A stretch of 64,000 bases of DNA from NCBI RefSeq assembly GCF_011398155.1, contig NZ_AP021888.1, positions 1,843,501-1,907,500 on the forward strand. The letters run 5' to 3'. The DNA comes from Thiosulfativibrio zosterae. Its GTDB lineage: Bacteria; Pseudomonadota; Gammaproteobacteria; Thiomicrospirales; Thiomicrospiraceae. Made by a program: the position numbers and the translations under genes. Position 1 is the stretch's first letter. Each line of letters starts with the position of its first letter. Below, one piece after another: positions 2,836-61,921 of this stretch. The notes beneath the pieces were generated by a model. The model had not been told where the DNA came from. It saw only the letters and a program-made list of their open reading frames with translations, and did no database searches.

Positions 2836-4838
2836 TGTTTTTTTTTAACGCTTATTGCCTAAAAAACAGTCATCACTCGCTTATTTACTTAGGCTTGTTT
2901 TTGCTTTTTTTTTCAAACCCCAATTTTGCAAAACCGGATATTGCCAGCCTAACCGAACAACAGCGCTTATTTTTAGAGGCTTACGATGCCATTAATAAAA
3001 AAGACCGTGCGCTCATTGCTGATTACAAAAAACGTCTTTCCGGTTATGTACTTGCTCCCTACTTAAGCTTTTTTGATTTTTATAAAAACATCGACAGCAC
3101 GCCTAACAGCGCGATTGAACAGTTCGTTATCCAAAACAAAGACAATCATTTGTCTGGCCGCCTAAAATACTACTGGTTGAATCACTTAGGGCGAAGCCAA
3201 CAATGGCGCAGTTTTCTAGCCCATTATAATTCTGAAGATTTTACGGCTCAGAACCTTAAATGTTATGCCACTTTGGCTGAACTCAACACCCAACCCAAAC
3301 CAGAATCTTCAGACAAGGCTAAAGCGCTTTGGCAAACTGGCAAACCCCTGTCAAGAGCTTGCCAACCCCTAGAAAACTATTTAATCAAAAACAAGCTATT
3401 AACAGGCTCTATGGTTTGGGAAAATATCAATATGGCCATGGGTCGTGATGAAATCACCTATGCGACCAAGTTATCCAAACACTTATCGCAAAACGAGCGC
3501 AATATTTTCCAGGCCTGGTTAAAAATTCACAAAGATCCAAGCCAATTAACCCAGCCTTTACCCTCAGAGTATCCGGGGCAAGTTCGCCAAAATATTTTTA
3601 TTCAAGGTATTAAAAAGCTTTCTAAAAAAGACCCTAAACTTGCCCAAAAATTGGTCACGCAAGACGCTAAGCGTTATGGGCTGAACCAAGCTGAAGAATT
3701 GAGTTTAATGAGAATTATCTCTTTACGCTTAGCAAGAAATTACCAGCCAGATGCTAAGTCCTTATTAGACCAGGTCAATGAAACAGACAGCTCTGAAAGC
3801 ACGCTTCGTTGGCAGTTACAACTGGCTCTGCGCCATTCTGACTGGGCAAGTGTTCTTGAAGTCTATGAAAAACTAGAAGATGATGAAAAGACCACCGAAA
3901 AATGGCAATACTGGCTAGCAAGGGCACTCGATAACACCCAAGAACCCAAAAAAGCCCAGCAAATTTATAAAAACCTAGCCACAAAAAGAAACTTTTATGG
4001 TTTTTTAGCCGCGGATAAACTCAAGCAAGATTATCAATTTAACCCTAGCCCCTCTAAAAAAATAGATGTTAATGAATTAATTCAAAAATATTCACAACTT
4101 CCCAGAATTAAAGAGTTGCTGGCGATTGACTGGCTTTTGAATGCGAATCGAGAATGGTACCATCTGCTTCAAACGGCCAAAAATGATGAATTAGAAGCCA
4201 TCAGTTATTTAGCGACCGACTGGCAACAACATAACATAGCGATTCGTGGACTGGCGATGGCAGAAAACTGGAATAATATTGAACTGCGCTTTCCGACACC
4301 CCATAAAACACCTGTGCTGCAAGCTGCTAAACAACATGCCGTTGACCCTGCATGGATTTATGGCGTTATGCGCCGAGAGAGTGCGTTTGCCACAGACATT
4401 CGCTCACCCGTAGGCGCAACTGGGTTAATGCAACTCATGCCCAATACGGCGCGATTTATTGGTCAGAAAATTGGGGTCAAACCACAGACCTACAAAAACC
4501 TAACCAATGCAGAATCTAACATTGAATTAGGGTCGGCCTATTTAAGTTATCTCAATGAGAAATTCCAAGGTAATCGTATCCTTGCAACCGCGGCCTATAA
4601 TGCAGGGCCTAACCGCGTAGAAGATTGGATTCCAGATGATCAACAACTCCCCGCTGATCAATGGATTGACAGCATTCCCTTTAACGAAACGCGCCGTTAT
4701 GTAAAAGCCGTTTTAGAATACACGATTATTTTTCAGTCATTATTGAATCAAAAATATGACCGCTTAGAAAATTACTTGCTACCGATTGGTCAATTGCAAA
4801 GTGCAAAATCTGATTCGTCAACTTTGGTAAAAAATTAA
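2835..4838 (+). CDS. slt: Soluble lytic murein transglycosylase (Slt70 family)
   Basis: This is a periplasmic exo-lytic transglycosylase acting in peptidoglycan turnover. The protein has 667 residues, close to the usual Slt70 length. It shows a hydrophobic signal peptide ending near FSNPNFAKP, a long alpha-helical superhelical U/L domain, and a C-terminal SLT domain with catalytic Glu515 in RRESAF followed by GATGLMQLMPNTA. The start is a GTG that shares one base with the mltD stop TAG; no ATG lies early enough to keep the signal peptide. A copy of the dispersed CCAGGCCTGG palindrome at 3509-3518 encodes Gln-Ala-Trp in the helical domain. Confidence 0.92.
   Translation: MFFFNAYCLKNSHHSLIYLGLFLLFFSNPNFAKPDIASLTEQQRLFLEAYDAINKKDRALIADYKKRLSGYVLAPYLSFFDFYKNIDSTPNSAIEQFVIQNKDNHLSGRLKYYWLNHLGRSQQWRSFLAHYNSEDFTAQNLKCYATLAELNTQPKPESSDKAKALWQTGKPLSRACQPLENYLIKNKLLTGSMVWENINMAMGRDEITYATKLSKHLSQNERNIFQAWLKIHKDPSQLTQPLPSEYPGQVRQNIFIQGIKKLSKKDPKLAQKLVTQDAKRYGLNQAEELSLMRIISLRLARNYQPDAKSLLDQVNETDSSESTLRWQLQLALRHSDWASVLEVYEKLEDDEKTTEKWQYWLARALDNTQEPKKAQQIYKNLATKRNFYGFLAADKLKQDYQFNPSPSKKIDVNELIQKYSQLPRIKELLAIDWLLNANREWYHLLQTAKNDELEAISYLATDWQQHNIAIRGLAMAENWNNIELRFPTPHKTPVLQAAKQHAVDPAWIYGVMRRESAFATDIRSPVGATGLMQLMPNTARFIGQKIGVKPQTYKNLTNAESNIELGSAYLSYLNEKFQGNRILATAAYNAGPNRVEDWIPDDQQLPADQWIDSIPFNETRRYVKAVLEYTIIFQSLLNQKYDRLENYLLPIGQLQSAKSDSSTLVKN
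3509..3518. repeat. Dispersed palindrome, 10-bp core, copy 1 (inside slt)
   Basis: CCAGGCCTGG followed by TT. The left outer base is T instead of A, so only the right half of the 12-mer is complete. It is read in frame as F-Q-A-W-L. Confidence 0.6.
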
Positions 4839-5073: not shown

Positions 5074-5100
5074 AAAAAACAACCAGGCCTGGTTATTTTT
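5074..5100. terminator. Dispersed palindrome copy 2 acting as bidirectional terminator
   Basis: The 12-bp palindrome ACCAGGCCTGGT at 5082-5093 is flanked by an A-rich left arm and ATTTTT on the right. Both strands therefore show a GC-rich stem followed by a T run. It sits 16 bp past the end of the leftward phosphatase gene and between convergent genes, where a terminator is expected. Confidence 0.55.
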
Positions 5101-17354: not shown

Positions 17355-19460
17355 TTACTGAGTTACAGGCACAGCTTGTGCATCTGGCGTAGCAAGCAAC
17401 GCAGGTGATCTTCTGACTAAAACATCTACACTATAAATACCGTATAAACGATAACTTGGCATAACAGGTGCATGATTTACCAACTCTGTTTTTAATTCAG
17501 CAAAATTTACTGTCTTAGCTTGACCATTAACTTCTGCAAAGATTTGGTTAGTATGGGTATAATCAAATCCTTCAAAATTCAACATATTACCTAAAACACG
17601 CAAAATCTTCCAAGCCGGTTTTGAATCACCAATCGGTGTTGCAGCTGGTTTAAAAGACTGTTTTAAACCTTGAGCATTTACAAAAGTACCGGCAGTTTCA
17701 GCAAAAGTTGCTATCGGTAACAACACATCTGCATATTCTCTTTGAGTCGGCGTATCAAAAGCCGTAAAGTTAATAACTAAATCAGCGTTTTGCATGGCTT
17801 TTAGAGCCAAATCCCCTTCTTGGCAATCGTGTTCTGGCTCAATGCCGAAATTAATATAAGCTGGCAATTGTTTTGAAATCATTTGAACCGTATTCAAACC
17901 GTCTTTTGGCAAGAATTCAACCAGATGTGAACCCACTTCATTCGCGGCAAAAGGTAATACACTTAAGACAGCGCCTGTAGCCTTAGCAATGACTTGCGAT
18001 AACTTCAAAATCAAACCATATTGCAGATCAGAAGACGCAATTTGACCCACCATAATAGAAGCTTTAGCCGCATTGGCTTTCAAATGTGCGGCTATGGCAT
18101 CAGATTCTGCACTCACAGTCACGGAATTTAACCAGGCCTGGTCATTTTTAGCCGCATTTGCAGCAGATTTAGCCACTTGTGCCAATAAGCCTATGTAGTC
18201 CTGTGCAAATAACTCATGTTTTAAATCAAAGTTAACATCAAACTTTTCAGGATTAATCGTGAAAACCTGAGCACCATTTAGCTGAGCCTTGCGCACGCGA
18301 TGGTTCAATAAAGGTAATTCTTTTCTAAGATATGAACCCACTAATAAAACCGACTTTAGTTGCTCAACTTCTGGGAAAGTATGATTTAACTTAGGGGTAA
18401 AGAAACCTAGAGAATCCATACTGAAATCGACTTGCTTTAGTCGTGTTTCGGTATTTTTAGTCCCAAGCGTATTAGTAAACTTCTTCAACAACGCTAATTC
18501 TTCAAGAGTTGAATTTGGAGACGCTAAAACGCCAATCTCTGATTTATCTGCAACTGTATTCAGTTTATCAACGGTAAAGGCTAGAGCCGTTTCCCAATCT
18601 ACTTCGGACCAAACGCCATTCTTTTTAATCATAGGTTGCTTTAAACGCGATTCAGAATTAATGGCTTCATAAGAAAAACGATCGCGATCCGATATCCAAA
18701 CTTCATTAATCGCTTCGTTTTCGTCGGGCACGACACGCTTCACTTCTCCATTTTTGCAATGCACGATAATGTTTGACCCCACCGAATCATGCGGAGCAAT
18801 GGATTTGTGAGCTGTTAATTCCCAAGATCTGGCTGTGTAACGGAATGGCTTAGAAGTTAATGAACCTACTGGGCAAATATCAATCATGTTACCTGATAAT
18901 TCAGAAACAATCGCACCCTCAATAAAAGTACCAATTTGCATAAACTCGCTACGACCAGTTGCCCCCAGTTCCATCATTCCGGCAATTTCTTGGCCAAAAC
19001 GGACACAACGAGTGCAGTGAATACAACGGGTCATATCTGTTTGAATCAGCGAGCCCACATTACGATCACCTAAAATTCTCTTAGGTTCGCTGTAACGCGA
19101 TACATCATCGCCATAATCCATAGCAACATCTTGCAATTCACACTCACCACCCTGATCGCAAATCGGGCAATCCAATGGATGGTTGATTAGTAAAAACTCC
19201 ATAACAGACTTTTGCGCTGCAATCGCCTTAGCAGATTTGGTATGAACTTTCATACCGTCAGTAACCGGTGTTGCACAGGCTGGCAAAGGTTTCCAAGCAC
19301 CTTCAACTTCAACCAAACACATACGGCAATTACCAGCGATGGACAGTTTTTTGTGGTAACAAAAACGCGGGATAGAAATCTGTGCTTGATCAGCAACATC
19401 TATCAACATATCGCCTTCATGCGCTTCGACAACTTGTCCATTAATCTCTATTTTGACCAT
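17355..19460 (-). CDS. nuoG: NADH-quinone oxidoreductase subunit G
   Basis: This is the largest peripheral-arm subunit, carrying clusters N1b, N4 and N5. The N-terminal [2Fe-2S] cysteines lie in [17 protein letters not shown] and LPACATP. The N5 region is [17 protein letters not shown], and the N4 region follows ([13 protein letters not shown] and [12 protein letters not shown]). The C-terminal molybdopterin-type domain lacks the extra N7 cysteines. At 701 residues it is shorter than the Escherichia coli protein but normal for this lineage. The palindrome copy at 18131-18142 encodes KNDQAW in the variable C-terminal domain. Its start lies 57 bp after nuoF. Confidence 0.96.
18131..18142. repeat. 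Dispersed palindrome ACCAGGCCTGGT, copy 3 (inside nuoG)
   Basis: Exact 12-bp palindrome with the right flank CATTTTTAG shared with the folC and mgtE-upstream copies. It is read on the minus strand as K-N-D-Q-A-W. Confidence 0.8.
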
Positions 19461-26762: not shown

Positions 26763-27590
26763 TTAATTATGCAAACCCAACGCCGAAGCTACTCTTAGAG
26801 CTTGCAAGGTTTCTGGCACATCATGCACCCTTAGAATCTGAGCGCCTTTTTGCATGGCAACTATGGCTGCCGCAAGCGAACCCGCTAACCTTGATTCATT
26901 GAGATCCATCTTTTGGAGCGCGCCAATCATAGACTTTCGTGAAACCCCGACCAAGACAGGGCAATTTAACTGCTGAAAAACTTCTAAAGAGCCGAATAAT
27001 TCTACATTATGTTGTAATGTTTTACCAAAGCCAAATCCAGGATCTACACAAATGTTACTGAGTTGAAGCCCTGATTCCTGACATTTTTCCAGTCGATTCT
27101 TCAGAAAACTCATCACCTCTTCAACCACATTTTCATAAGAGGGGCTTGCCTGCATGGTCTGTGGCGTGCCCTGCTTATGCATTAAACAAACTTTAACATC
27201 ATGCTGAGCCAATAACTCTAGCGCTCCTGGAGCTTGCAAAGCATTGACATCATTAATCATCCAAACACCCTTAGAAAGCACTTCACGCATCACTTCTGTT
27301 TTGTAGGTGTCGATAGAAATCGGTAAATCACAAGCTTCTCTAATCCAATCCATCGCCGGTAAAACCCGCGCTAATTCTTCGTCTACTGAAACAATATTGG
27401 CACCAGGCCTGGTTGATTCTCCACCTATATCAATCAAATCAGCACCTGATTTTGCCATCATTTCTGCTGCTCTAATCACCGAGTCTCGATCGACAGTTTT
27501 ACCACCATCCGAAAAGGAATCTGGCGTGACATTCAGGATTCCCATTACCAAAGGTAAAGCTTGCTTGTTATTATGCATCTTGAATTTCAT
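26763..27590 (-). CDS. folP: Dihydropteroate synthase
   Basis: This enzyme joins p-aminobenzoate to dihydropterin pyrophosphate in folate synthesis. The 275-residue TIM-barrel protein contains the family signatures MGILNVTPDSFSDGG (residues 16-30) and GGESTRPGAN (56-65). The ATG at 27590 lies directly after the T run of the ftsH terminator hairpin, so its ribosome-binding region overlaps that structure; Met5 is an alternative start. A copy of the 12-bp palindrome at 27402-27413 encodes the conserved TRPG with an AGG arginine codon. Confidence 0.95.
   Translation of the reverse strand: MKFKMHNNKQALPLVMGILNVTPDSFSDGGKTVDRDSVIRAAEMMAKSGADLIDIGGESTRPGANIVSVDEELARVLPAMDWIREACDLPISIDTYKTEVMREVLSKGVWMINDVNALQAPGALELLAQHDVKVCLMHKQGTPQTMQASPSYENVVEEVMSFLKNRLEKCQESGLQLSNICVDPGFGFGKTLQHNVELFGSLEVFQQLNCPVLVGVSRKSMIGALQKMDLNESRLAGSLAAAIVAMQKGAQILRVHDVPETLQALRVASALGLHN
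27402..27413. repeat. Dispersed palindrome ACCAGGCCTGGT, copy 4 (inside folP)
   Basis: Exact 12-bp palindrome, read on the minus strand as T-R-P-G. This differs in frame from the Q-A-W copies, and the AT-rich flanks are weaker. Confidence 0.75.
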
Positions 27591-33604: not shown

Positions 33605-34255
33605 TTACAACGAGGAAGGTGTAATTTTAACCAATTCTGACTTCACGCGTAAGAGTCGATTCAACTCATTTTGATCTTTCTTAGCCTGAGCTTCATCCAA
33701 ATAAGGTCCAATCCGGACTGAATAATAGTCAGTTTTTGGAAAATACTTGATAAATGCCTCATAGTCATAACTTAAACGCGATCGCATTTCTTCGGCCATC
33801 TCTTTGTTTTTATAGGCAACAAGGCGCAAAATCCAAATAGATTGCTGTTTCTTGGCTTGAGTTTTAATAACACCCTGCTGTTCTTTGGCCTGAGTTGACT
33901 CAGTTGCTTGAGCGTCACTCTTTTTGTCGTCAGCCTTAGGTTTGGCAGATTTTTCAGCCGATTGCTTGGCCAAATCAGCTTCAACAAGCTTTGCAGGCTC
34001 TTCTTTTGACTTGGGTGAAGTGGTTTGAACCGGTGTTTTTGGCACAACCGCATCTTGCGGTAAAACAAACGCATGACTGACAACTGGCGTAGCCGGTTGT
34101 GAGGCATTCAGAGTATTTGAGGGATGAAAATCGACCGGATCGTTATACCAGATAGGTACCACAACCACCAACAGCAACAGCCAAACCACTGAACCGATTA
34201 AACGATTGCGACTGACAATGGCGTCTTGTACAGAATCGTCTTCAGCCTGGCTCAT
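33605..34255 (-). CDS. DedD-like SPOR-domain cell-division protein
   Basis: This is an inner-membrane protein with a C-terminal SPOR domain that binds denuded septal peptidoglycan. With the ATG at 34255 (MSQAEDDSVQ) it has 216 residues and overlaps the folC stop by four bases (ATGA); a longer start would lie inside folC. One membrane helix (about 20-36), a Lys/Ala/Glu/Gln-rich linker and the SPOR domain (about 135-216, WILRLVAYKNKEMAEEMR, YYSVRIGPY) are visible. The folC-dedD-purF context supports the DedD assignment. Confidence 0.88.
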   Translation of the reverse strand: MSQAEDDSVQDAIVSRNRLIGSVVWLLLLVVVVPIWYNDPVDFHPSNTLNASQPATPVVSHAFVLPQDAVVPKTPVQTTSPKSKEEPAKLVEADLAKQSAEKSAKPKADDKKSDAQATESTQAKEQQGVIKTQAKKQQSIWILRLVAYKNKEMAEEMRSRLSYDYEAFIKYFPKTDYYSVRIGPYLDEAQAKKDQNELNRLLRVKSELVKITPSSL

Positions 34256-35532
34256 TGTTCTAAAACCGCTAAGGCTTGCGCAACCGTAATAAACGACCCC
34301 CAAACCAATACTCTAGAAGATTTAAGCCGTGCTGCTTTTACCGCTTGCGCGATCGACTCAAAACCACGCACTGCTTGTTCAGTCACCCCTGCGGTTTTCA
34401 GTAGTTTTTGCAGGTTCTCTAGGCTGGTTGCTCTAGGCACTTTTAAATCTGCAATCAACCACTGCGAAGCAAAAGGTTGAATGGCTTTTACCATTGGCAA
34501 CATATCCTTGTCACTCAGTGCTGAGAAAATAACGCTGTCAAAATGCAATGTTTGACTCGCTAAATATTGTCCCAAAACGGCTGACGACTGGGGATTATGA
34601 GCAACATCGATTAACCATTCTTGCCCCTCAATCGTCAACCATTGCAAACGACCTGGGTGCTTGGCTTGCGCCAATCCTTGTGAAATTTGAGCGGGCGTAA
34701 CTGGCAAAACCGCTTGCAAAGTTTGCACCACTGCCACAACGCCAGCGGCATTTTGAAATTGAAACTCTCCTGACAAACTGGGATTATCGAGCGTTAAAGT
34801 GGGGGAATTTTGGGCTAAAAACAACCAGGCCTGGTCATTTTTAGGCATTTTTTCGAACCCAAAATCTCTACCCAATAAACTTAAAGAAGTCGGTAATTGA
34901 TTGGCAAAATCAATCAGGGTTTGTGGGACAGTGGGGTCAGAACAAATCGCTGGCTTACCAGCACGCATAATGCCCGCTTTTTCTAAGGCAATTTGATTTT
35001 TATCACTGCCCAACCAATCAATATGATCCACATCAATCGCAGTGACCAGTGCAATATCGGCATCCACAATATTTACCGCATCTAAACGACCGCCTAAGCC
35101 GACTTCCAAAACAATCACATCTAAGGGTTGCTGTGCAAAAACCCATAAGCCCGCCAAGGTGGCGAATTCAAAATAAGTGAGCTTGGTGGTGCCACGAGCC
35201 GCTTCTATCTCGGCAAAAGCCTCAACAATCGCTGAATCCGCTACAGGAGCGCCATTGATTTGAATGCGTTCATTAAAGCGTAAAATATGGGGAGAAGTGT
35301 AAGCGCCGACACCATAGCCAGCGGCTTGATAGATAGATTGCAAAAATGCAACACTTGAACCCTTGCCATTGGTACCGGCAACGGTAATGACTTTAGCTTT
35401 AGGCTGTAATAACCTTAAACGCTGACCCACTTCGCGCACACGCGTTAGACCAAGATCAATTTCTTGAGCGTGTAAGCTGAGCAACCAATCTAACCAATGG
35501 GTTAGGCTTGAATGTCGTGTGGGCTTTTCCAT
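34252..35532 (-). CDS. folC: Bifunctional folylpolyglutamate/dihydrofolate synthase
   Basis: This enzyme attaches glutamate to dihydropteroate and extends folate polyglutamate tails. The 426-residue Mur-ligase-fold protein has the P-loop VAGTNGKGSS, EVGLGGRLDAVN and DIALVTAIDVDHIDWLG motifs. The accD-folC-dedD-purF order is typical of proteobacteria. An exact copy of the 12-bp palindrome at 34824-34835 encodes KNDQAW in a variable part of the central domain. Confidence 0.96.
   Translation of the reverse strand: MEKPTRHSSLTHWLDWLLSLHAQEIDLGLTRVREVGQRLRLLQPKAKVITVAGTNGKGSSVAFLQSIYQAAGYGVGAYTSPHILRFNERIQINGAPVADSAIVEAFAEIEAARGTTKLTYFEFATLAGLWVFAQQPLDVIVLEVGLGGRLDAVNIVDADIALVTAIDVDHIDWLGSDKNQIALEKAGIMRAGKPAICSDPTVPQTLIDFANQLPTSLSLLGRDFGFEKMPKNDQAWLFLAQNSPTLTLDNPSLSGEFQFQNAAGVVAVVQTLQAVLPVTPAQISQGLAQAKHPGRLQWLTIEGQEWLIDVAHNPQSSAVLGQYLASQTLHFDSVIFSALSDKDMLPMVKAIQPFASQWLIADLKVPRATSLENLQKLLKTAGVTEQAVRGFESIAQAVKAARLKSSRVLVWGSFITVAQALAVLEQ
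34824..34835. repeat. Dispersed palindrome ACCAGGCCTGGT, copy 5 (inside folC)
   Basis: Exact palindrome with the flanks AAAAACA on the left and CATTTTTAGG on the right, nearly identical to the copy at 54954. Read on the minus strand as K-N-D-Q-A-W. Confidence 0.85.
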
Positions 35533-38551: not shown

Positions 38552-39175
38552 TTAAAAAGTTCCATTTATAAATTGTTGTATTTTTTGTAAAGATTTCTTT
38601 CCAGGTGCGGCTTCAACCCCGCCACTCACATCCACCGCAAAAGGGCTCACCTGCGCTATGGCTTGTTGAACATTGTCTGGGGTCAGACCACCCGCCAAAA
38701 TAATCGGCTTATTAAAATCACTGGGCAAATGGGCTAACCAATCCCAATTAAAAGACTCGCCTGTTCCACCAGGCACGCCTTTCACATAGGTATCCAACAA
38801 CAAGGCTCTGGCAGACGCATAGGTTTTTGCCAAAGCCACCAAGTCGGTTTGGGCCTGCATACGGATTGCCTTAATATACGGACGATTAAACTGCTCGCAA
38901 TACTCAGGCGTTTCATCGCCGTGGAACTGCAACAGGTCTATTTGGGTTTGATCAATCACCTGCTGCACAAACTCGGCATCAGCGTCTACAAACAAAGCCA
39001 CAGAGGTCAAAAAAGCTGGGATTTGGCCTAAAATTGACCAGGCCTGGTCAATTTTGACATTCCTAGGGCTTTTTTCATAAAACACAAAACCGATAGCATC
39101 CGCACCCGCATGCGCCACAGCCATAGCATCCTCAAGACAAGTGATTCCACAAATTTTGACGCGTGTGCGACTCAT
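38552..39175 (-). CDS. trpF: Phosphoribosylanthranilate isomerase
   Basis: This enzyme converts N-(5-phosphoribosyl)anthranilate to the carboxyphenylaminodeoxyribulose form in tryptophan synthesis. The 207-residue TIM-barrel protein starts with [12 protein letters not shown] (catalytic Cys) and ends with the phosphate-binding [10 protein letters not shown] and DVSGGVE motifs. The palindrome copy at 39037-39048 encodes KIDQAW in the first half of the barrel, without lengthening the protein relative to the family. Confidence 0.96.
39037..39048. repeat. Dispersed palindrome ACCAGGCCTGGT, copy 6 (inside trpF)
   Basis: The symmetric match extends to AAAATTG on the left and CAATTTT on the right, the longest perfect arms of all copies. 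Read on the minus strand as K-I-D-Q-A-W. Confidence 0.85.
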
Positions 39176-46489: not shown

Positions 46490-47608
46490 ATGAAATACCA
46501 AGGCATAGAAAACTTCCAACACGGACAAGAAGCGGCAACCGGCATTTTAATCACCAATCTAGGCACCCCAGACGACTGCACTAAACAAGCGCTGCGTCCT
46601 TATTTAAAAGAATTTCTCAGCGACCCTCGTGTGGTAGAACCGCCACCAGCGCGCTGGGTGTGGTGGTTGATTTTGAATGGCATTATCTTAAATGTGCGTC
46701 CAGCCAAATCAGCCGAAGCCTATGCGTCAGTGTGGAACTCCGAAGGTGATGGCGCACCTTTACTCAATATTTTGCAACGCCAGGTAGCCGCCATTGCCGA
46801 AAAAGTGCGTCCGCACTTTCAAGGTCGCGTGGAATTTGAAGCCGCCATGCGTTATGGCAATCCATCCATCGCCTCAGGCCTAAAAAAACTGCAAGAAAAA
46901 GGCTGTGAGCGCATTTTGGTTTTACCCCTTTACCCACAATATGCTGCCGCCACCACCGCCTCTACTTTTGACGCCGTTACCGCCGAGTTGCAAACTTGGC
47001 GTTGGATTCCTGAATTGCGTTTTATCAACAAATATCACCGCAACACTGGATACATCAAAGCGCTGGCCAACTCCATTCGCGAATACCAAGCAGAACATGG
47101 CAAGCCACAATTATTGGTCATGTCATATCATGGCGTGCCCAAACGCTATTTAGACAATGGTGACCCTTATCACTGCGAATGCCATGTCACCTCGCGTTTA
47201 GTGGCGCAAGAGCTGGGATTAAAACCCGACGAATACAAAGTCACTTTTCAATCGCGCTTTGGTCGCGAACCTTGGTTGCAACCTTACACCGATGAAACCA
47301 TGAAAGCCCTACCCGGGCAAGGCATTAAAAACATTCAAGTCATCTGCCCAGGATTTTCAGCAGACTGCCTTGAAACCATTGAAGAAATTAGTGAAGAAAA
47401 CCACGAGTATTTTATGCATGCCGGCGGAGAGCAATTTGGCTACATTAAATGTCTAAACGACCGTGAAGACCACACCCAAGCCCTAGCCGACTTGGTATTG
47501 CAACATACCCAAGGTTGGTACGAACGCGACGGATTTAATAGCGAAGCCGATATCGCAGAACGCAAAACAGTGAACGCCAACGCCAAAGCAATGGGTTGTC
47601 CTTTCTAA
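46490..47608 (+). CDS. hemH: Ferrochelatase
   Basis: This enzyme inserts ferrous iron into protoporphyrin IX, the last step of heme synthesis. The 372-residue protein has GILITNLGTPD and LRPYLKEFLSDPRVVE at the N-terminus, the active-site His in VMSYHGVPKRY, and YKVTFQSRFGREPWLQP followed by CPGFSADCLETIEE. The first hairpin copy of the duplicated element begins 31 bp after its stop. Confidence 0.97.
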   Translation: MKYQGIENFQHGQEAATGILITNLGTPDDCTKQALRPYLKEFLSDPRVVEPPPARWVWWLILNGIILNVRPAKSAEAYASVWNSEGDGAPLLNILQRQVAAIAEKVRPHFQGRVEFEAAMRYGNPSIASGLKKLQEKGCERILVLPLYPQYAAATTASTFDAVTAELQTWRWIPELRFINKYHRNTGYIKALANSIREYQAEHGKPQLLVMSYHGVPKRYLDNGDPYHCECHVTSRLVAQELGLKPDEYKVTFQSRFGREPWLQPYTDETMKALPGQGIKNIQVICPGFSADCLETIEEISEENHEYFMHAGGEQFGYIKCLNDREDHTQALADLVLQHTQGWYERDGFNSEADIAERKTVNANAKAMGCPF

Positions 47609-47638: not shown

Positions 47639-47702
47639 AAAAAGCCGCTAAATTTGACCAGCACCCTAAAGGGCGTAAAACCTGGTTAAGTTTTGCAGCT
47701 TA
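47639..47702 (+). repeat. Long imperfect hairpin, copy A, left border of the Mrr segment
   Basis: The first 49 bases from 47640 match copy B (48877) at all but three positions. The inner half-sites ACCAG and CCTGGT flank a small CCCTAAAGGG stem. The outer right arm has decayed (GCAGCTT against AGCGGCTT), so it is a weaker terminator than copy B. Confidence 0.8.
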
Positions 47703-47899
47703 TTTTCTTCGAAAAAATTGTACGCTCCCCAAACACCCCAATCAACAGAGGCAACCAATTAAAATTTTAAATTCAACGAAGATTTTAAGAATATAATTTT
47801 TAAAAATTTAACCCTAAAATCTAATCACGACAAGCTTATTGAATAGCATGAAAAACAATCGATTACTATTAATCAAACGTCATACCAAAGAGAAAAAAT

Positions 47900-48769
47900 A
47901 TGAAAACAATGCCAACATTTGATTCATTAATGAATCCTCTTCTGCAAGCCCTAGCTGAACTTGGGGGTTCTGGCTCGATTGATGAAATTTATAAGAAAGT
48001 GGCAGAAATTCAAAATATCAACGATGAAATATTATCAATCCCACACAACCCTGATAAAAGCAACCAAACAGAAGTTGCATATCGATTAGCTTGGGCAAGA
48101 ACATATCTAAAAAAATATGGGCTATTAGAAAATTCAAGCAGGGGTATTTGGACACTAACTCAAAAAGGCAAGGAACAAAAAAAAGTTGATACTTCTGAGG
48201 TACTAAAGATCGTAAGGGAATTAGACAAAAAAGAACCACACTTAAAAAATAAAAAAGAAAGTGAAAATATCGAATTAGAGGACGACGATGCGCCAGAAGA
48301 GGTAAAAGCTTGGAGAGAAGAATTGCACCATCTACTGACACAAGAAATAACACCAGATGCTTTTGAAAGACTTGCTCAAAGGCTATTAAGAGAAAGTGGC
48401 TTTGTTCAGGTAGAGGTTACAGGAAAAACTGGCGATGGCGGCATAGATGGTAAAGGCATAGCAAGAATTAACGGTCTAATGAGTTTTCACGTTATTTTTC
48501 AATGTAAAAAATACCAAGGTTCAGTATCTGCTGGAGAAATCAGAGACTTTCGTGGCGCAATGGTTGGTCGCGCTGATAAGGGACTGTTTATTACAACGGG
48601 CACATTTACATCTGCAGCCATTAAAGAGGCAACTAGAGATGGCGCACCTCCAGTTGATCTTATTGACGGAGACAATCTGGCTGAAAAATTAAAGGAACTA
48701 AATCTTGGTGTAAAAACTAAGATGATTGAAGAGGTTAACTTAGATAAAGAGTGGTTCTTAAATCTTTAA
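47900..48769 (+). CDS. Mrr-like type IV restriction endonuclease
   Basis: This 289-residue protein has an N-terminal winged-helix Mrr_N domain (about 5-90) and a C-terminal Mrr-cat nuclease domain (about 150-270). The PD-(D/E)xK-type active site is seen as Glu156, the TGDGGIDG loop with Asp183, and Gln201-x-Lys203 in FQCKKY. KGLFITTGTFTSAAI is also diagnostic. Family members cut methylated or otherwise modified foreign DNA. The gene is AT-rich and uses AGA and AGG arginine codons repeatedly, unlike hemH and the surrounding genes, which favour CGC and CGT. It is bracketed by duplicated hairpins, so it was probably acquired by transfer. No methyltransferase gene accompanies it, fitting a stand-alone type IV enzyme. 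Confidence 0.92.
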   Translation: MKTMPTFDSLMNPLLQALAELGGSGSIDEIYKKVAEIQNINDEILSIPHNPDKSNQTEVAYRLAWARTYLKKYGLLENSSRGIWTLTQKGKEQKKVDTSEVLKIVRELDKKEPHLKNKKESENIELEDDDAPEEVKAWREELHHLLTQEITPDAFERLAQRLLRESGFVQVEVTGKTGDGGIDGKGIARINGLMSFHVIFQCKKYQGSVSAGEIRDFRGAMVGRADKGLFITTGTFTSAAIKEATRDGAPPVDLIDGDNLAEKLKELNLGVKTKMIEEVNLDKEWFLNL

Positions 48770-48876
48770 GTGGAGTGACAAGCAACTGGTGCAGAAATCA
48801 AAAGGGTCGGACTCGATTGATTCCACTTTAAATTAAGCCACTAATGTCTTAGGCAAAACTGAATCACTTTGAAAAC

Positions 48877-48941
48877 AAAAGCCGCTAAATTTGACCAGTA
48901 CCCTAAAGGGCATAATACCTGGTTAAATCTAGCGGCTTTTT
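48877..48941. terminator. Long hairpin, copy B: bidirectional terminator and right border of the Mrr segment
   Basis: AAAAGCCGCTA (from 48877) pairs perfectly with TAGCGGCTTTT (ending 48941). Inside lie ACCAG and CCTGGT half-sites and a small CCCTAAAGGG stem. A runs and T runs on both sides make it a terminator for both strands, between the Mrr gene and the leftward DUF1704 gene. It is a near duplicate of copy A, about 1.24 kb away. Confidence 0.85.
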
Positions 48942-48954
48942 GGCTTTGTATTGG

Positions 48955-50970
48955 TTAAAAAACCAAGTGCGATGGATGTGATGAATGCATTAAATATTCC
49001 AAAATTGGATTATGCTTAACATTCATATCTTTCTGCATATACATTGGCAAATGGGTTGGTTTTTGCACCATGCCGCGTTCAATCATTTCGTTGATGGTTT
49101 TGAGATAAGCAAAGCTGGTTTTTCCGACATACAGCCCTTCTAGCGATTCTTTTTTATAGTATTGCAACGCATCTTTCACGCCACGCAAATATAAGAAATC
49201 TTTGGTAAATCCACCGCCACGATAAACGCGCGCCGTTAATCTAAAGGCTTCATCTTTATCAATACCATAGTCATTCATCAGCGTTTTATAGGTGTGTCCA
49301 AAATCATAGTGACTCACCATCATTTTGACCGCAATCACGCGCATCGCTAAGGTTTTTAAACGCGGCAAATTCATATTGCCCGTCATATATTCCGACAAAA
49401 TCGCCAGCCCTTCTTGGGTATAGGTATTGCCCGGCAATCCCAGTTTAAAGACTTTTAAATCCTGTTGTTCAGCGTTCATGGTGGTGACCATGTGCACCCC
49501 CAATTCATGATGAATCAGCGCATCAATTTCGATTTGGTTCATGCGCATCGACTTGTTGATCATAATGGTTTTACGACCATTATCCACCATGGCACTGGCA
49601 ATGATTTTGTCGGTCACTTCAACTTTACATTGAATTTGATAGTCGTCTAAAGCGGCCAAGAAATGTTGCTTGGCTTGTTTGGCGTCAATTGTGCGCTCTT
49701 GGGATTCTTCGTAGGGTTTGGCATACAATAAAAAATGCGCCATTTGAATATCGTCATCACTCGGCTCGCCGTAATAGCGCAGAGAGTTGTATAAAAACTT
49801 TTCTGTGCCCACGGTTGTTAAGAGGTCAATTTTGGTGGCATAGGTGTCAATAACATCGCGATACATTTGTTGAATCGACACATCGGTCACCTGACTTTCG
49901 GGCAAGCGATACAATTTCTCACGAAACTCAAACGGGTTAATTTCTAACTGTCGATAGGTAAATTGCGGCGTATAACTGCCACCACTTTCAAAAAAACGTT
50001 TCTTTTCGGTGATGATGTTACGCGGATTAATGTAACCCAGCGTTTGAATACCGCGGGCTAACTTGTGAAGTTTTTGATCTAGCTTTAAAACCGCCGGCTC
50101 AATTTTAGAGGACAACAACTGAGTACGATGATGACGCGTTTCGGGGGAAAAGTGTTTGGAAAAAAACAAAGCATTGGCCAGAATAATTTCTTTGAGTGCC
50201 GCTTTAAGTGGATTCAACACCAACGGATAGGCTTCACCGCTGAGCTCATTCATAAAGACTTTTTTGACTTCAGTGGGCAATACCAGTGTATGGACAAAAT
50301 GTTTTTTGACATAGGTCGCTAGATAACCACGCCCAAAAAAAACTTCGTTTTCAGCCGAACGAGATACCAAATTTGGCAGAGTTACCATGGCCAAACTTTT
50401 ATTCCAATGTTTAATCACTCGCCCCCAACGCACTTTATTGAGTTGTTCAGTGCCAATGTTAAAAGTAGGGGGTGGCGTGTCTTGATTCATACGTAAATGA
50501 TTGTAAGAGTGCAAATCATAAACCAAACAACTGCCATGCAATTTTTCAAGCTTTTTAATCAATGCGCCCAGCACCTTATAAAAGCGCGAATGCTTAAGCT
50601 GACTGGCACCCTCTTCTTCAATCGACAAAGGCTGTGCCCAGACTTGTTTGCCCCAGGCCTCTTTGTACACGCAGTTTTCTGGGGCACGATTCAGGTCATA
50701 TTCGTAACGCGAATCCTTGCCAATCAGCGTGATGGGCAAGGATGAAATCATTTCTCCAGTAAACGGGTCTTCTTCATACAAACGCTCTGATTCAGTGAGT
50801 TGACATTTTTCTAACAAATCGGGGCGCAGTTGATGGCCATCATGAATGGCGGTACAGATAAAAAATCCATAGTCTTCAATTTTAAGCTCAAACATCCCAT
50901 CGACCAAGGCGTGAAACAACTCGCCTTTTTCGATGGCTTTAACGCACTCTTTTATAGTTAAATTAATCAT
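48955..50970 (-). CDS. N-formylglutamate-amidohydrolase-like/DUF1704 metallopeptidase fusion
   Basis: This 671-residue protein joins two hydrolase domains. The N-terminal half (about 1-270) resembles N-formylglutamate amidohydrolase, with AIHDGHQLRPD, the SRYEYDLNR block and YDLHSYNH. The C-terminal half (about 300-660) is DUF1704, with the zinc motif HExxxH (His488, Glu489, His493 in HHELGVH) and QEGLA at 519-523. DUF1704 proteins are named after flavohemoglobin expression, and eukaryotic relatives are tyrosine carboxypeptidases acting on tubulin. The start overlaps the upstream GshB-like gene by 8 bp, so ligase and hydrolase are co-translated. Substrate unknown; trimming of an amino-acid tag is an inference. 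Confidence 0.9.
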   Translation of the reverse strand: MINLTIKECVKAIEKGELFHALVDGMFELKIEDYGFFICTAIHDGHQLRPDLLEKCQLTESERLYEEDPFTGEMISSLPITLIGKDSRYEYDLNRAPENCVYKEAWGKQVWAQPLSIEEEGASQLKHSRFYKVLGALIKKLEKLHGSCLVYDLHSYNHLRMNQDTPPPTFNIGTEQLNKVRWGRVIKHWNKSLAMVTLPNLVSRSAENEVFFGRGYLATYVKKHFVHTLVLPTEVKKVFMNELSGEAYPLVLNPLKAALKEIILANALFFSKHFSPETRHHRTQLLSSKIEPAVLKLDQKLHKLARGIQTLGYINPRNIITEKKRFFESGGSYTPQFTYRQLEINPFEFREKLYRLPESQVTDVSIQQMYRDVIDTYATKIDLLTTVGTEKFLYNSLRYYGEPSDDDIQMAHFLLYAKPYEESQERTIDAKQAKQHFLAALDDYQIQCKVEVTDKIIASAMVDNGRKTIMINKSMRMNQIEIDALIHHELGVHMVTTMNAEQQDLKVFKLGLPGNTYTQEGLAILSEYMTGNMNLPRLKTLAMRVIAVKMMVSHYDFGHTYKTLMNDYGIDKDEAFRLTARVYRGGGFTKDFLYLRGVKDALQYYKKESLEGLYVGKTSFAYLKTINEMIERGMVQKPTHLPMYMQKDMNVKHNPILEYLMHSSHPSHLVF

Positions 50971-51991
50971 CTAATAATGCCTTTACAAATTCTGTTCTAC
51001 GCGCCTCGTTAAAGGTTTTGGTTTTAACCATCTGCTCTACAAAATCAATGACTTTGGTTTGCAACTTCACCCGATTCAATTTATTAATCCGCATAATACC
51101 GCCAGGACTGAGCACATTCACTTCTATCAATTTGCCATTGATGACATCGATGCCTACAAAAAACAAACCATCCCTGACCAATTTGGGCCCAATTAAAGCG
51201 CATAGGTCTTTTTCAACTTGGGTGAGCGTGTGTTTAACCACCGTACCCCCCGCATGCACATTGGAGCGCATATCGCCCGCCGCAGGTATGCGTTTCATCG
51301 CACCAATGGCTTTTCCATTGAGCATTAAAATCCGCACATCGCCCAATTCTGCGCCCTCAACATACTCTTGCAGAATGACATAGTTGCCGTCTTTGCTGCT
51401 GTTGATGTAAAAATCTAGCAGAGATCGAAAGCTGGCAATGGCTTGTTTTTCGACCAAAATGACGCCATGGCCGCCATAGCCATCTAAAGGCTTCATAATC
51501 ATTTTTTCATTCGGCGAATGGCGCAACACCTTTTCTAAGTAATCGGGCGTTTTGGACACATAGGTTTTTGGAATAAAACGATTTTCAGGGTCATCAAAAG
51601 AAGAGGTATAGAGTTTATTATTGGCGATGCGTAAACCATCGATGTCGTTCATGATAAAAACATCATGGCGCACCGAATCTAAAAAGTTAAGCGCCGTCAC
51701 ATTAAGTGGTGGATTAGAGCGCATGATAATGGCGTCAAATCCGCCCAAAGGTAATTTAACCTGGCGAAAGCGCGCTTTTTTGTAAAAGGTGTTAATAACG
51801 CCAGGCACCTTGTCTGTTTCGATAAACACATTACAAAATGCCATGGCAGTAGATTCACGCATGGTGAGATTATGCACTGTGGCCAAAGCCACTGTGTGTT
51901 TGCGTGCCACACACTCGTGAATCATCCGCAGCGTCGAATCATTATTGGGATCGACTCTGTCCCATGGATACATCAAAAATAAAATATTCAA
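50963..51991 (-). CDS. GshB/RimK-like ATP-grasp amide ligase
   Basis: This 342-residue ATP-grasp protein resembles glutathione synthetase and RimK. Visible blocks are the N-terminal pre-ATP-grasp domain (MNILFLMYPWDRVDPNNDST), MRSNPPLN, MIMKPLDGYGGHGVILVEK (ATP-binding loop), LQEYVEGAELGDVRILMLNG and GIDVINGKLIEVNVLSPGG (metal and ATP ligands). It differs from true GshB in its downstream partner, a DUF1704 hydrolase fused to an amidohydrolase-like domain. It probably joins an amino acid or small amine to an acid or peptide, with substrate unknown. No gshA is nearby. Confidence 0.88.
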   Translation of the reverse strand: MNILFLMYPWDRVDPNNDSTLRMIHECVARKHTVALATVHNLTMRESTAMAFCNVFIETDKVPGVINTFYKKARFRQVKLPLGGFDAIIMRSNPPLNVTALNFLDSVRHDVFIMNDIDGLRIANNKLYTSSFDDPENRFIPKTYVSKTPDYLEKVLRHSPNEKMIMKPLDGYGGHGVILVEKQAIASFRSLLDFYINSSKDGNYVILQEYVEGAELGDVRILMLNGKAIGAMKRIPAAGDMRSNVHAGGTVVKHTLTQVEKDLCALIGPKLVRDGLFFVGIDVINGKLIEVNVLSPGGIMRINKLNRVKLQTKVIDFVEQMVKTKTFNEARRTEFVKALLDD

Positions 51992-53553: not shown

Positions 53554-54915
53554 TTACTTCAAAATTAATAGGGTAGCCAAACCTAAGAATGACATAAAAC
53601 CAACCACATCAGTCACGGTTGTCAAGATAACCGCGCCTGATAAGGCTGGGTCAATTTTCATTTCTTTTAAGACCAAAGGCACCGCAATACCTGCAATATT
53701 CGCCACGGTCATATTTATGAGGATGGCCAAGGCTATGACTAAGCTGATCATGGTATCTTCAAACCACCATTGTGCGATCACGCCAACCACGATTGCCCAA
53801 AGCAATCCATTCATCGCGCCTACCCATAATTCTTTATTGAACAACCACCAACGGTTGTTACCCCCAACCTGCCCCATGGCTAAACCCCGAATAATGACCG
53901 TGAGGGTTTGGCTGCCCGCTATCCCGCCCATGCTGGCGACCACCGGCATCAGCACCGCTAAAGCCACCACTTGCGACAATACCGCTTCAAACTGACCGAT
54001 GACATAGGCGGCTAAAAAAGCGGTCGCAAGGTTAATGCCCAGCCAAATACCGCGGCTTTGCGCACTGCGCATAATGGGCGCAAATAACTCTTCATCTTCA
54101 CTCACCCCCGACATATTCATCATGGTGGCTTCTGAATCATCACGGGTAATTTCTAAAATGTTTTCAATATTGAGCTGACCGACTAGGATGCCACACTCAT
54201 TCACAACCGGTGCAAAGTGTAAGTCTTTAGAGCGTAAAATCATGGCGGCTTCATGGACATCCATTTCATCCAACAATGAAAAAGAGTTATACATAAAATC
54301 TGACACCAAAGCTTCTTGATTATTTTTAACCAAATCCACCAAACTCAAAGTACCTACCAGGCGATTTTCTTTATCAGTGACCATGATTTCTTGCGAATGG
54401 TCATCCAATAAATGCAGGATGCGAATATAGCGTTGCACCGTTTCTAAAGTCACATCGACCTTAACATTCACTGTTTCAGGGTTCATGTAGCGCCCAACGG
54501 TGTCGTCTCCGTAGGCCTGCAGGGCTTCTACCTGCTCACGAGTGGAGTCATCTAATTGCTCGATAACCGCATCTTTAACATCGTCTTCTACTGTATCTAA
54601 TAATTCGGCGATGTCCTGAGCATCTAGGTCTTTGGCCAACTCAGAAACTTCTTCTGCGGCCATTTCCGACATCAGGTCTTCACGAATATCTTCACTAACT
54701 TCGGCTAACACTTCCCCTTTAATCGCTTCGGGCACACATTGCCAAATCAGTTCACGATCATTCGGCGGAAAAGACTCCAGTAACAAGGCGATTTCTGTAT
54801 CGCTTTTGTCTTCAAAAAAAGCACAAACCGCTTCGGAGTTTTCGGCAGAAACCAAGGCTTGTAACTGCAGTAACTTGTCTTCTGAAGTGCTATTCACTTC
54901 TTCGTTTTGGCTCAT
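53554..54915 (-). CDS. mgtE: Magnesium transporter MgtE
   Basis: This channel-like Mg2+ transporter has a cytoplasmic N domain (about 15-120), two CBS domains (about 130-255) that sense Mg2+ and a C-terminal domain of five membrane helices (about 275-453). I start at 54915 (MSQNEEVNS), preceded by AGAG, giving 453 residues. The conserved membrane segments PVVASMGGIAGSQTLTVIIRG and ANIAGIAVPLVLKEMKIDPA are present. A palindrome copy lies upstream at 54954-54965. It is next to a CorC-type gene, also linked to Mg2+ homeostasis. Confidence 0.94.
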   Translation of the reverse strand: MSQNEEVNSTSEDKLLQLQALVSAENSEAVCAFFEDKSDTEIALLLESFPPNDRELIWQCVPEAIKGEVLAEVSEDIREDLMSEMAAEEVSELAKDLDAQDIAELLDTVEDDVKDAVIEQLDDSTREQVEALQAYGDDTVGRYMNPETVNVKVDVTLETVQRYIRILHLLDDHSQEIMVTDKENRLVGTLSLVDLVKNNQEALVSDFMYNSFSLLDEMDVHEAAMILRSKDLHFAPVVNECGILVGQLNIENILEITRDDSEATMMNMSGVSEDEELFAPIMRSAQSRGIWLGINLATAFLAAYVIGQFEAVLSQVVALAVLMPVVASMGGIAGSQTLTVIIRGLAMGQVGGNNRWWLFNKELWVGAMNGLLWAIVVGVIAQWWFEDTMISLVIALAILINMTVANIAGIAVPLVLKEMKIDPALSGAVILTTVTDVVGFMSFLGLATLLILK

Positions 54916-54953
54916 AAGTTTCTCTTTTTTGGGGAATTTCGACCTCAAAAACA

Positions 54954-54965
54954 ACCAGGCCTGGT
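54954..54965. repeat. Dispersed palindrome ACCAGGCCTGGT, copy 7 (upstream of mgtE)
   Basis: Exact palindrome with AAAAACA on the left and CATTTTTAGG on the right, lying between the end of the CorC-type gene and the start of mgtE. The symmetric A and T runs could make a hairpin terminator or a leader structure of mgtE. Confidence 0.85.
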
Positions 54966-54987: not shown

Positions 54988-56337
54988 TTAGATTTCTAAG
55001 TTTTCAGAATTGTTTTCGGGTTTCGTTGGCAAACGCTTAACAAAAACTTTCTCTGGGCGATATTGAGCTAAGCTTTCAACTTTAAAAACCCAACCTTGAT
55101 AGGTCACGGTTGCACCCACCTCTGGCAATCCATTTAATTGCATCATGATTAATCCAGATAAGGTGCTGACATCCAGCGACCCCTCAAATTTCTCATTAAC
55201 ACGCTTTTCAAAATCATGTAACGCCATTAAACCATCTACTTCAAAACCTGCATAAATATCAATGGCTGCTTGAGTTTCTTGAATATTAGGCTCTTCGTCG
55301 TCTAACTCATCCGAGATTTCACCCACAATTTCTTCAATTAGATCTTCCATGGTTAAAATACCCACAAAGGCACCATGCTCATCTATTACAAAAGCCATGT
55401 GGTTTCGACTTTTGCGCAGTTCGTCAAAGGCTTTTTGAAGGCTCATCACCTCAGGCATAATGACCGCAGGTCTTGCCATTTCTCGCAACGCTGACTCATC
55501 TAACGATTCGTTATTTAAGATTTTATTGGTCACATCTTTTAACAATAAAAAACCCAAGGCCTTATCCAAAGAACCATCTACTAAAGGGTAGCGAGAATGG
55601 CCAAGCATTCTGATGCGTTCAACCGTTTCTTGCCATGGCGTACATACATCGATGCAATCTACTTTACTGCGAGACATCATCACATCTCTTGCAATTCGTG
55701 AATCAAATGCAAACATATTTTGAATCATGTCGGCTTTGCTTAAATCCATTTCACCGCTTTCAGAGGAGGCTTCAATCAGCTCACTGATTTCTTCAACACT
55801 GAAAATTTCTTCATGTGACGCTTCTTTAACACCCATCAATTTCAAAATACTTGAAGCAGACCAATTTAACGCGCGAGTTAAAGGGTAAGTCATTAAGTAA
55901 AAACCATGCAGCGGTAAAGCAACCCAAATGGATACCTTTTCAGGTTTGCGAATGGCATAGGTTTTAGGAACCTGTTCACCAATAACAATATGCAAGGAAG
56001 AAAAAATAATAAATCCCACTAAAAATGCACTAATATGCAACATTTCGTCAGAAAGCCCAAAAGACGCAAACAAAGGCTGCAATAACTTTGCAACGGCGGG
56101 CTCCCCAACCCAGCCTAATCCTAGCGAAGCCATGGTAATCCCTAATTGGCAAGCCGCTAAATAGGACTCTAGATTGCGTTTAATCATCAGCATCAGTTTA
56201 TTGCTCAACCCGCCCTCTTTGGCCATGCTTTCAATGCGGGTCATTCTCACTTTAACCAAAGCAAACTCTGCCGCAACGAAAAAACCATTCGCTATCAATA
56301 AAATAACGATGACTGCCAAACTGGTACTACTTTCCAT
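54988..56337 (-). CDS. CNNM/CorC-type protein with DUF21 and CBS domains
   Basis: This 449-residue protein has an N-terminal DUF21 membrane domain (about 1-200, four helices, GEQVPKTYAIRKPEKVS), a CBS pair (about 215-340) and a C-terminal CorC_HlyC domain. Bacterial homologues take part in Mg2+ or Co2+ efflux; some are annotated as hemolysins, which is historical. It lies upstream of mgtE on the same strand, so the two may balance Mg2+ uptake and efflux. Confidence 0.92.
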   Translation of the reverse strand: MESSTSLAVIVILLIANGFFVAAEFALVKVRMTRIESMAKEGGLSNKLMLMIKRNLESYLAACQLGITMASLGLGWVGEPAVAKLLQPLFASFGLSDEMLHISAFLVGFIIFSSLHIVIGEQVPKTYAIRKPEKVSIWVALPLHGFYLMTYPLTRALNWSASSILKLMGVKEASHEEIFSVEEISELIEASSESGEMDLSKADMIQNMFAFDSRIARDVMMSRSKVDCIDVCTPWQETVERIRMLGHSRYPLVDGSLDKALGFLLLKDVTNKILNNESLDESALREMARPAVIMPEVMSLQKAFDELRKSRNHMAFVIDEHGAFVGILTMEDLIEEIVGEISDELDDEEPNIQETQAAIDIYAGFEVDGLMALHDFEKRVNEKFEGSLDVSTLSGLIMMQLNGLPEVGATVTYQGWVFKVESLAQYRPEKVFVKRLPTKPENNSENLEI

Positions 56338-61269: not shown

Positions 61270-61773
61270 TCACAAACGACAGTCTGTCGAAACCAGATGC
61301 GTTTGATGAGGATTAACCAGCCAGCCTTTCGGCATATCGGCTCGACCAATCAAAACCGGCACCTTTAAGTGTTGGCGATTGACCAGATTAAATTGCACAA
61401 CCCTTTTTTGCCCCGCAAAACACAGCTGCAACGCAATCACCGGGCGAACACTGGCTGCTTGTAGCGCCGTTTTGGCTTTGATAACACTGTTTTTTAACAC
61501 CGGGCGCTCTAGCGTTTTTTGACCCAATAACTCAAAACGCACCCAGGCCTGGTCGTTTTTTTCAAAGGGTTCAATGTTTAGGGCGTGCAATGAAGAATGA
61601 TCAGCGCCTGTATCTATTTTGGCCTCAGCAAACAGTTGCTCGTCGGTAAAGTAAACGGTTTCTTGCCAACCCAACACTTGGGGGTCTGCGCTAGCGATTT
61701 GGCAAAAACTCATTAAAATACTCAATAGAATGAGCTGTGGCATTGGGTTTAAACAACTATTTGAGTGCGTCAT
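61270..61773 (-). CDS. Secreted retropepsin-like (Zn_protease/RimB family) aspartic protease
   Basis: The 167-residue protein has a single retropepsin motif Asp54-Thr-Gly-Ala-Asp58 in KIDTGADHSSLHA, then VLIGRADMPKGWLVNP. It matches the family annotated as ATP-dependent zinc protease, related to RimB of Pseudomonas. I start at 61773, giving a signal peptide (PQLILLSILMSFCQIASA); in-frame upstream codons would only extend the N-terminus. Export separates it from cytoplasmic RimK, which makes a direct S6-trimming role unlikely. A palindrome core at 61543-61552 encodes KNDQAW. It is convergent with the hydrolase gene (7 bp gap). Confidence 0.87.
   Translation of the reverse strand: MTHSNSCLNPMPQLILLSILMSFCQIASADPQVLGWQETVYFTDEQLFAEAKIDTGADHSSLHALNIEPFEKNDQAWVRFELLGQKTLERPVLKNSVIKAKTALQAASVRPVIALQLCFAGQKRVVQFNLVNRQHLKVPVLIGRADMPKGWLVNPHQTHLVSTDCRL
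61543..61552. repeat. Dispersed palindrome, 10-bp core, copy 8 (inside the retropepsin gene)
   Basis: CCAGGCCTGG with a complete right half (GGTC) and a C instead of A at the left outer base. T-rich right flank as in other copies. Read on the minus strand as K-N-D-Q-A-W. Confidence 0.65.
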
Positions 61774-61921
61774 TGACAAGGTTTCTCTTTGTTGAGTGGA
61801 ATGATACGATGTGATTATCAGTGACTTTTGACCAGCAAGCAAAGTCTATTTATTTGTACCCAATTTGATTATTTGCAATACACTTCTGAAACCCTTTAAG
61901 GATTCGGTATCAGCCTAGGAG

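Follow-up and report, generated by a model that had tools for sequence, protein, structure and literature searches.

The window, i.e. the whole stretch of 64,000 nucleotides of Thiosulfativibrio zosterae DNA under analysis, contains an mrr-type gene with a product of 289 amino acids (47900-48769, + strand), which is preceded by the ferrochelatase gene hemH (46490-47608, + strand) and is convergent with a gene encoding a MATCAP (DUF1704) plus FGase protein (48955-50970, - strand). Two terminator-like hairpins bracket mrr. Hairpin A (47640-47709), directly 3' of hemH, has a decayed stem, and hairpin B (48877-48946), which occupies the convergent gap between mrr and the DUF1704 gene, has an intact, bidirectional one. 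Neither is assigned to a strand, and both belong to the long form of a palindrome that is described below.

The assignment of mrr to the Mrr-type Type IV restriction endonucleases is a prediction from sequence, based on domain matches. Mrr_N and Mrr_cat are recognised with E values of 9e-22 and 5e-31 (107.6 and 77.5 bits, against curated cut-offs of 21 and 29.5), a D...QxK-like motif is present (GDGGIDG...FQCKKY), and the PADLOC models for Type IV restriction also match the product. A single-sequence search for the solved structure of an Mrr relative gave none at an E value of 0.001. In the plasmid collection, the top match (65.6 % identity over the full length) adjoins mcrC on pR997 of Proteus mirabilis, which also carries mobH and traD; R997 presumably belongs to the integrative elements of the SXT/R391 group. 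Unlike this counterpart, the host gene stands alone between hemH and the DUF1704 gene.

No ortholog of mrr was found in the 62 other genomes of the family, where the best match attains at most 40 % over part of the protein and 34 % over its length, whereas hemH matches reach 85 %. The first-pass annotation had described the gene as rich in AGA/AGG codons unlike its neighbours, and the counts bear this out: these codons account for 10 of the 13 arginine codons in mrr, as opposed to none among the 20 of hemH and one among the 30 of the DUF1704 gene. Similarly, GC3 is 0.26 in mrr compared with 0.48 in hemH and 0.46 in the DUF1704 gene, and the 190 bp 5' of mrr have a GC content of 28 %. Since a family ortholog is missing, the top plasmid match is the gene on pR997, and both codon usage and GC3 diverge, acquisition is well supported, and mrr is probably a foreign, defence-type gene obtained by horizontal transfer.

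The DUF1704 gene may itself have been acquired, as it occurs in none of the 23 family relatives tested, yet is found in three more distant genomes. It overlaps an ATP-grasp neighbour related to glutathione synthetase (48955-51991 for the two genes), with which it is probably co-transcribed. In general, the sequence 3' of hemH varies between species. Among the hemH matches listed from the genome collection, in which Thiomicrorhabdus and Thiomicrospira are the closest named relatives, there was no further genome of the host's genus that could show an empty site.

The paired hairpins

A and B form a direct repeat with 86 % identity over 70 bases and a start-to-start distance of 1237 bp, a similarity that is far beyond chance. 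Their first 49 bases differ by exactly three mismatches (C/T, G/A, A/T), in agreement with the initial description of near-identical direct repeats about 1.24 kb apart, and a comparison of the letters revealed no sequence common to the two sites beyond the hairpin itself. In A, the motif ACCAG (47657-47661) is separated from CCTGGT (47681-47686) by an insert (47662-47680); in B, CCTGGT is located at 48918-48923. The arms of B are 22 nt long and 91 % complementary, enclose a loop of 20 nt and fold strongly compared with shuffled sequence (z = -4.6/-4.9 for the two strands). The corresponding values for A are -0.3/-0.4, its right arm having decayed as previously remarked. B had also been called an excellent bidirectional terminator, and the strong fold on both strands fits this description; that B, and likewise A, terminates transcription is something we infer from structure. 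A simple terminator scan, whose loop limit of 8 nt is shorter than the loop of B, omits this hairpin. Rfam returned a match of B to an animal microRNA at 25.3 bits, below the cut-off of 93, which was taken as chance.

An iterated palindrome in the host genome

A search with hairpin B against the 2.65-Mb genome recovered 68 matching pieces at ~40 scattered places. When folded, many of these matches form terminator-like hairpins with a constant palindromic core, ACCAGGCCTGGT, and variable outer arms, which include AAAAGCCGC, AAAAGCCCC, AAAAGTCCC and others. The 12-mer ACCAGGCCTGGT is found 384 times in the genome with at most one mismatch, 289 of the copies being exact, and the reversed-pattern control gave none. 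A and B represent a long form of this palindrome, present in 15 copies and split by an insert of ~19 nt (18-19 nt, consisting of C/T plus a ACCCTAAAGGGCATAAAG-like sequence). The insert has 16 matches in the genome, 15 of which lie inside a split or degenerate palindrome.

Most copies of the palindrome are single and are situated within or next to ordinary genes such as nuoG, folP, folC and trpF. In the window, core copies, none of them assigned to a strand, are found inside the genes for a lytic transglycosylase (core 3509-3518, of the form CCAGGCCTGG, in 2835-4838), NuoG (18132-18141 in 17355-19460), FolP (27403-27412 in 26763-27590), FolC (34825-34834 in 34252-35532), TrpF (39038-39047 in 38552-39175) and a retropepsin-like peptidase (61543-61552 in 61270-61842). 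Another CCAGGCCTGG copy is intergenic (5083-5092), and a further core coincides with the start of an mgtE-like ORF (54955-54964), between 53554-54954 and 54988-56337.

The counts that concern flanks, reading frames, QAW codons, convergent genes and new dialects come from genome samples and not from whole genomes. Of 70 copies sampled in the host, 37 fall within ORFs, where two reading frames (QAW and PGLV) predominate; the remaining 33 show a ~4-fold enrichment in the 12 % of the sequence that lies outside ORFs. No enrichment is seen between convergent genes (7/48 against a background of 78/459 in a 744-kb host sample). In the host, AT tracts are most pronounced at distances of ~5-8 and 16-19 bases on leaving the core. 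The tripeptide QAW is encoded as CAGGCCTGG in 31 of 46 cases in the host sample, compared with 3.7 expected from codon usage, and samples of other carriers exhibit a similar or stronger bias. The palindrome is thus maintained at the DNA level.

Dialects in the family and origin of the copies

At least one exact copy of ACCAGGCCTGGT is present in 41 of the 63 family genomes, with counts between 0 and 718 and sharp differences even inside a genus. A second dialect, ACCGGCCGGT, reaches 1,025 copies in one relative, G051, versus at most 15 in every other genome; in G051 the usual ACCAGGCCTGGT form is absent and the ACCGGCCGGT copies have AAA-TTT flanks. A ACAGGCCTGT-type core, seen in genome samples of G017 and G012, is probably a third dialect. 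Overall, the core is accompanied by AT-rich flanks in five of the six genomes sampled. Among genomes without known dialects (G002, G008, G040, G041, G044, G054, G055 and others), samples of 20-200 kb yielded no clear iterated palindromes, and in the sample of G041 the most extreme repeats came from one tandem-repeat region.

The origin of individual copies can be followed at two genes, nuoG and hemH. The site within nuoG reads CAGGCCTGG in 18 of 18 carriers in the alignment (genomes with at least 16 exact copies) and in 0 of 12 non-carriers (0-2 copies), a distribution that ignores relatedness. The nuoG alignment is gap-free at the core, and the non-carrier G054 retains DQAWL, encoded by other codons. 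One orthologous site in hemH reads ACCAGGCCTGC in G050, G052 and G057 and CCCGGCCGGC in G051, i.e. one dialect has been swapped for the other. Judged by these two genes, the coding copies arose by substitution and not by insertion.

Possible readings of the hairpins and the palindrome

The first-pass annotation suggested that a defence cassette had entered at, or had carried, a hairpin repeat, which would have left direct repeats on both sides. The foreign, defence-type nature of mrr accords with this idea and is the part of it that stands. The pairing of A and B also speaks in its favour: of the 15 long forms, each is the other's best match, and together they are the sole intergenic pair around exactly one whole gene in 744 kb of host genome. 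However, the margin of their similarity is trivial (a score of 48, compared with 46 for the runner-up, an unlinked copy; the top-scoring long-form pair of the genome, at 53, is also unlinked), and their spacing is not improbable, with p = 0.09 for any pair at or below 1,237 bp when 15 long forms are placed randomly. Over the same 744 kb, the motif family has 14 pairs of neighbours no more than 2 kb apart. Neither a transposase nor an integrase was found between A and B. Moreover, the hairpin family extends over the whole genome, and the ~40 places at which it was found are mostly unrelated to cargo genes, a situation that the first-pass annotation had named as evidence against its own model; with 384 cores, mostly single, neither entry at the hairpin nor its carriage by the cassette is supported, and such an insertion is unlikely. 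As to the original finding, paired hairpins on either side of a gene say little about mobility in genomes of this kind, and A and B are most likely ordinary gene-end terminators and not a landing site of mrr. Nine of the 15 long forms lie within 370 kb (1608459-1977893, a region picked post hoc that includes the window; p = 0.002) and, because of this clustering and of the mutual best match, local duplication may be the source of the similarity between A and B. Mobility could also be attributed to the palindrome itself, as a REP/MITE/RPE-like repeat that inserts into genes and intergenic DNA. The dispersed copies would agree with this, as would the split long form with its constant 18-19-nt insert at 15 places, but a mobile core is hardly tenable: it is contradicted by the gap-free nuoG alignment and rejected because orthologous sites differ by substitution, and the outer arms differ between copies. 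The long-form insert could itself be mobile. Integron attC sites, which are defined by R boxes (RYYYAAC / GTTRRRY) at fixed hairpin-end positions together with an IntI integrase, were considered as well. Some copies do contain letters that suit such boxes (ATTTAAC...GTTAAAT), yet this reading is rejected because the boxes have an internal position and are not conserved from copy to copy.

Other explanations concern the agent that maintains the signal. The core resembles HIP1 and the alternate HIPs, iterated palindromes of cyanobacteria (PMC4390886), in being a short, GC-rich palindrome of high frequency that is patchy among relatives and swapped for other palindromes in some of them. A signal made and kept by methyltransferase-linked repair, as proposed for HIP1, is nevertheless improbable here. 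Methylases of the C5 type (PF00145), the type covered by the search, are missing from the host and from most carriers, among them G051 and each of the nine genomes sampled from genus g5, which also makes Dcm-type methylation unlikely. In addition, the core has 12 bp compared with 8 bp in HIP1, and its AT-rich flanks, which extend to 19 bases out, are more than one would predict for just a methylase site. A palindrome that occurs about once per 7 kb, with close neighbours scarce (in the host sample, 2 spacings out of 72 are at or below 1,237 bp, versus ~10 expected), could also be the binding site of a protein for chromosome organisation or segregation. Yet genomes of one genus differ in having or lacking it and the consensus exists as dialects, both of which are unusual for essential architecture, and the strong use in gene-end hairpins also argues against this function, so that we consider it decidedly improbable.

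In the explanation that we prefer, A and B would be two intrinsic terminators of the host, both built on the long form of ACCAGGCCTGGT. A would be the terminator of hemH, now decaying, and B would be common to the convergent mrr and DUF1704 genes, with mrr as a separate, acquired gene of the Type IV restriction type that came to stand between them. The ACCAGGCCTGGT motif, iterated up to hundreds of times by the host and many relatives (Thiomicrospira, Hydrogenovibrio, Thiomicrorhabdus and others), would be a self-recognition signal for DNA uptake which a competence receptor reads as two half-sites and which has been co-opted into terminators, as with USS and DUS. The structural part of this explanation is very probably correct. 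The identification of the palindrome as an uptake signal is evenly poised between right and wrong, and we lean towards the explanation as a whole. That the signal is iterated, maintained and divided into dialects is far better supported than any particular reader of it.

The palindrome is best read as a signal of the uptake type because it resembles the signals of Pasteurellaceae and Neisseriaceae in its AT tracts, its bias towards certain reading frames and its putative use in terminators. USS originate by substitution and not by insertion, possess AT-rich segments about one helical turn apart and occur as subclade types (PMC1626085); dialects are also documented for DUS (PMC3630211), and paired uptake signals serve as terminators (PMC1852404). 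Likewise, the palindrome is a short motif repeated hundreds of times in genic and intergenic DNA, far above the reversed control, with AT-rich flanks spaced by roughly one helical turn, clade-specific dialects and, at nuoG and hemH, an origin by substitution. Many copies lie in terminator-like hairpins and the motif is enriched outside ORFs but, contrary to what use in terminators would lead one to expect, not between convergent genes. ComEC is encoded by the host and by 57 of the 63 family genomes, palindrome-free ones included. On the other hand, the Thiomicrospiraceae core is a perfect palindrome, whereas the established USS are non-palindromic (PMC12616744), and its copies are less dense, at 0.1-0.4 per kb versus ~1 per kb for USS and DUS (PMC1626085). 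The family is also a different one. Palindromic uptake signals would imply a symmetric, perhaps dimeric, receptor; in Simonsiella, overlapping dyad pairs of DUS were taken as a hint of a dimer-based reader (PMC3630211). That the Thiomicrospiraceae possess uptake recognition outside the two established families, with palindromic signals of the ACCAGGCCTGGT, ACCGGCCGGT and ACAGGCCTGT types as species dialects, is a tentative conclusion, which we place a little short of even.

If it is true, sequence-specific DNA uptake would have evolved in a further family, one of sulfur-oxidising bacteria, with symmetric signals, and the dialects, comparable over ~60 sequenced species, would allow the receptor to be sought through co-variation. 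If the uptake reading is false, there is still a strongly maintained genome-wide signal in a well-sequenced family. Among the matches listed from the open-licence literature, no published account of the palindrome, or of an uptake signal in Thiomicrospiraceae, was found.

Two other kinds of repeats were seen in the course of the analysis. A second dispersed repeat of the host, GGGGCG(C/A)AGGCTTTAGCCT(G/T)C paired with its reverse complement ~40 bp away, is arranged in small clusters, for example at 77.7-78.3, 228.6-229.1 and 2407.9-2408.4 kb (L133, L139 and L278, outside the window), and looks like REP/BIME elements. The sample of genome G047 (L110-L116) contains ~38 copies of a GC-rich repeat ending in GTGGATTGAA, which looks like a CRISPR repeat.
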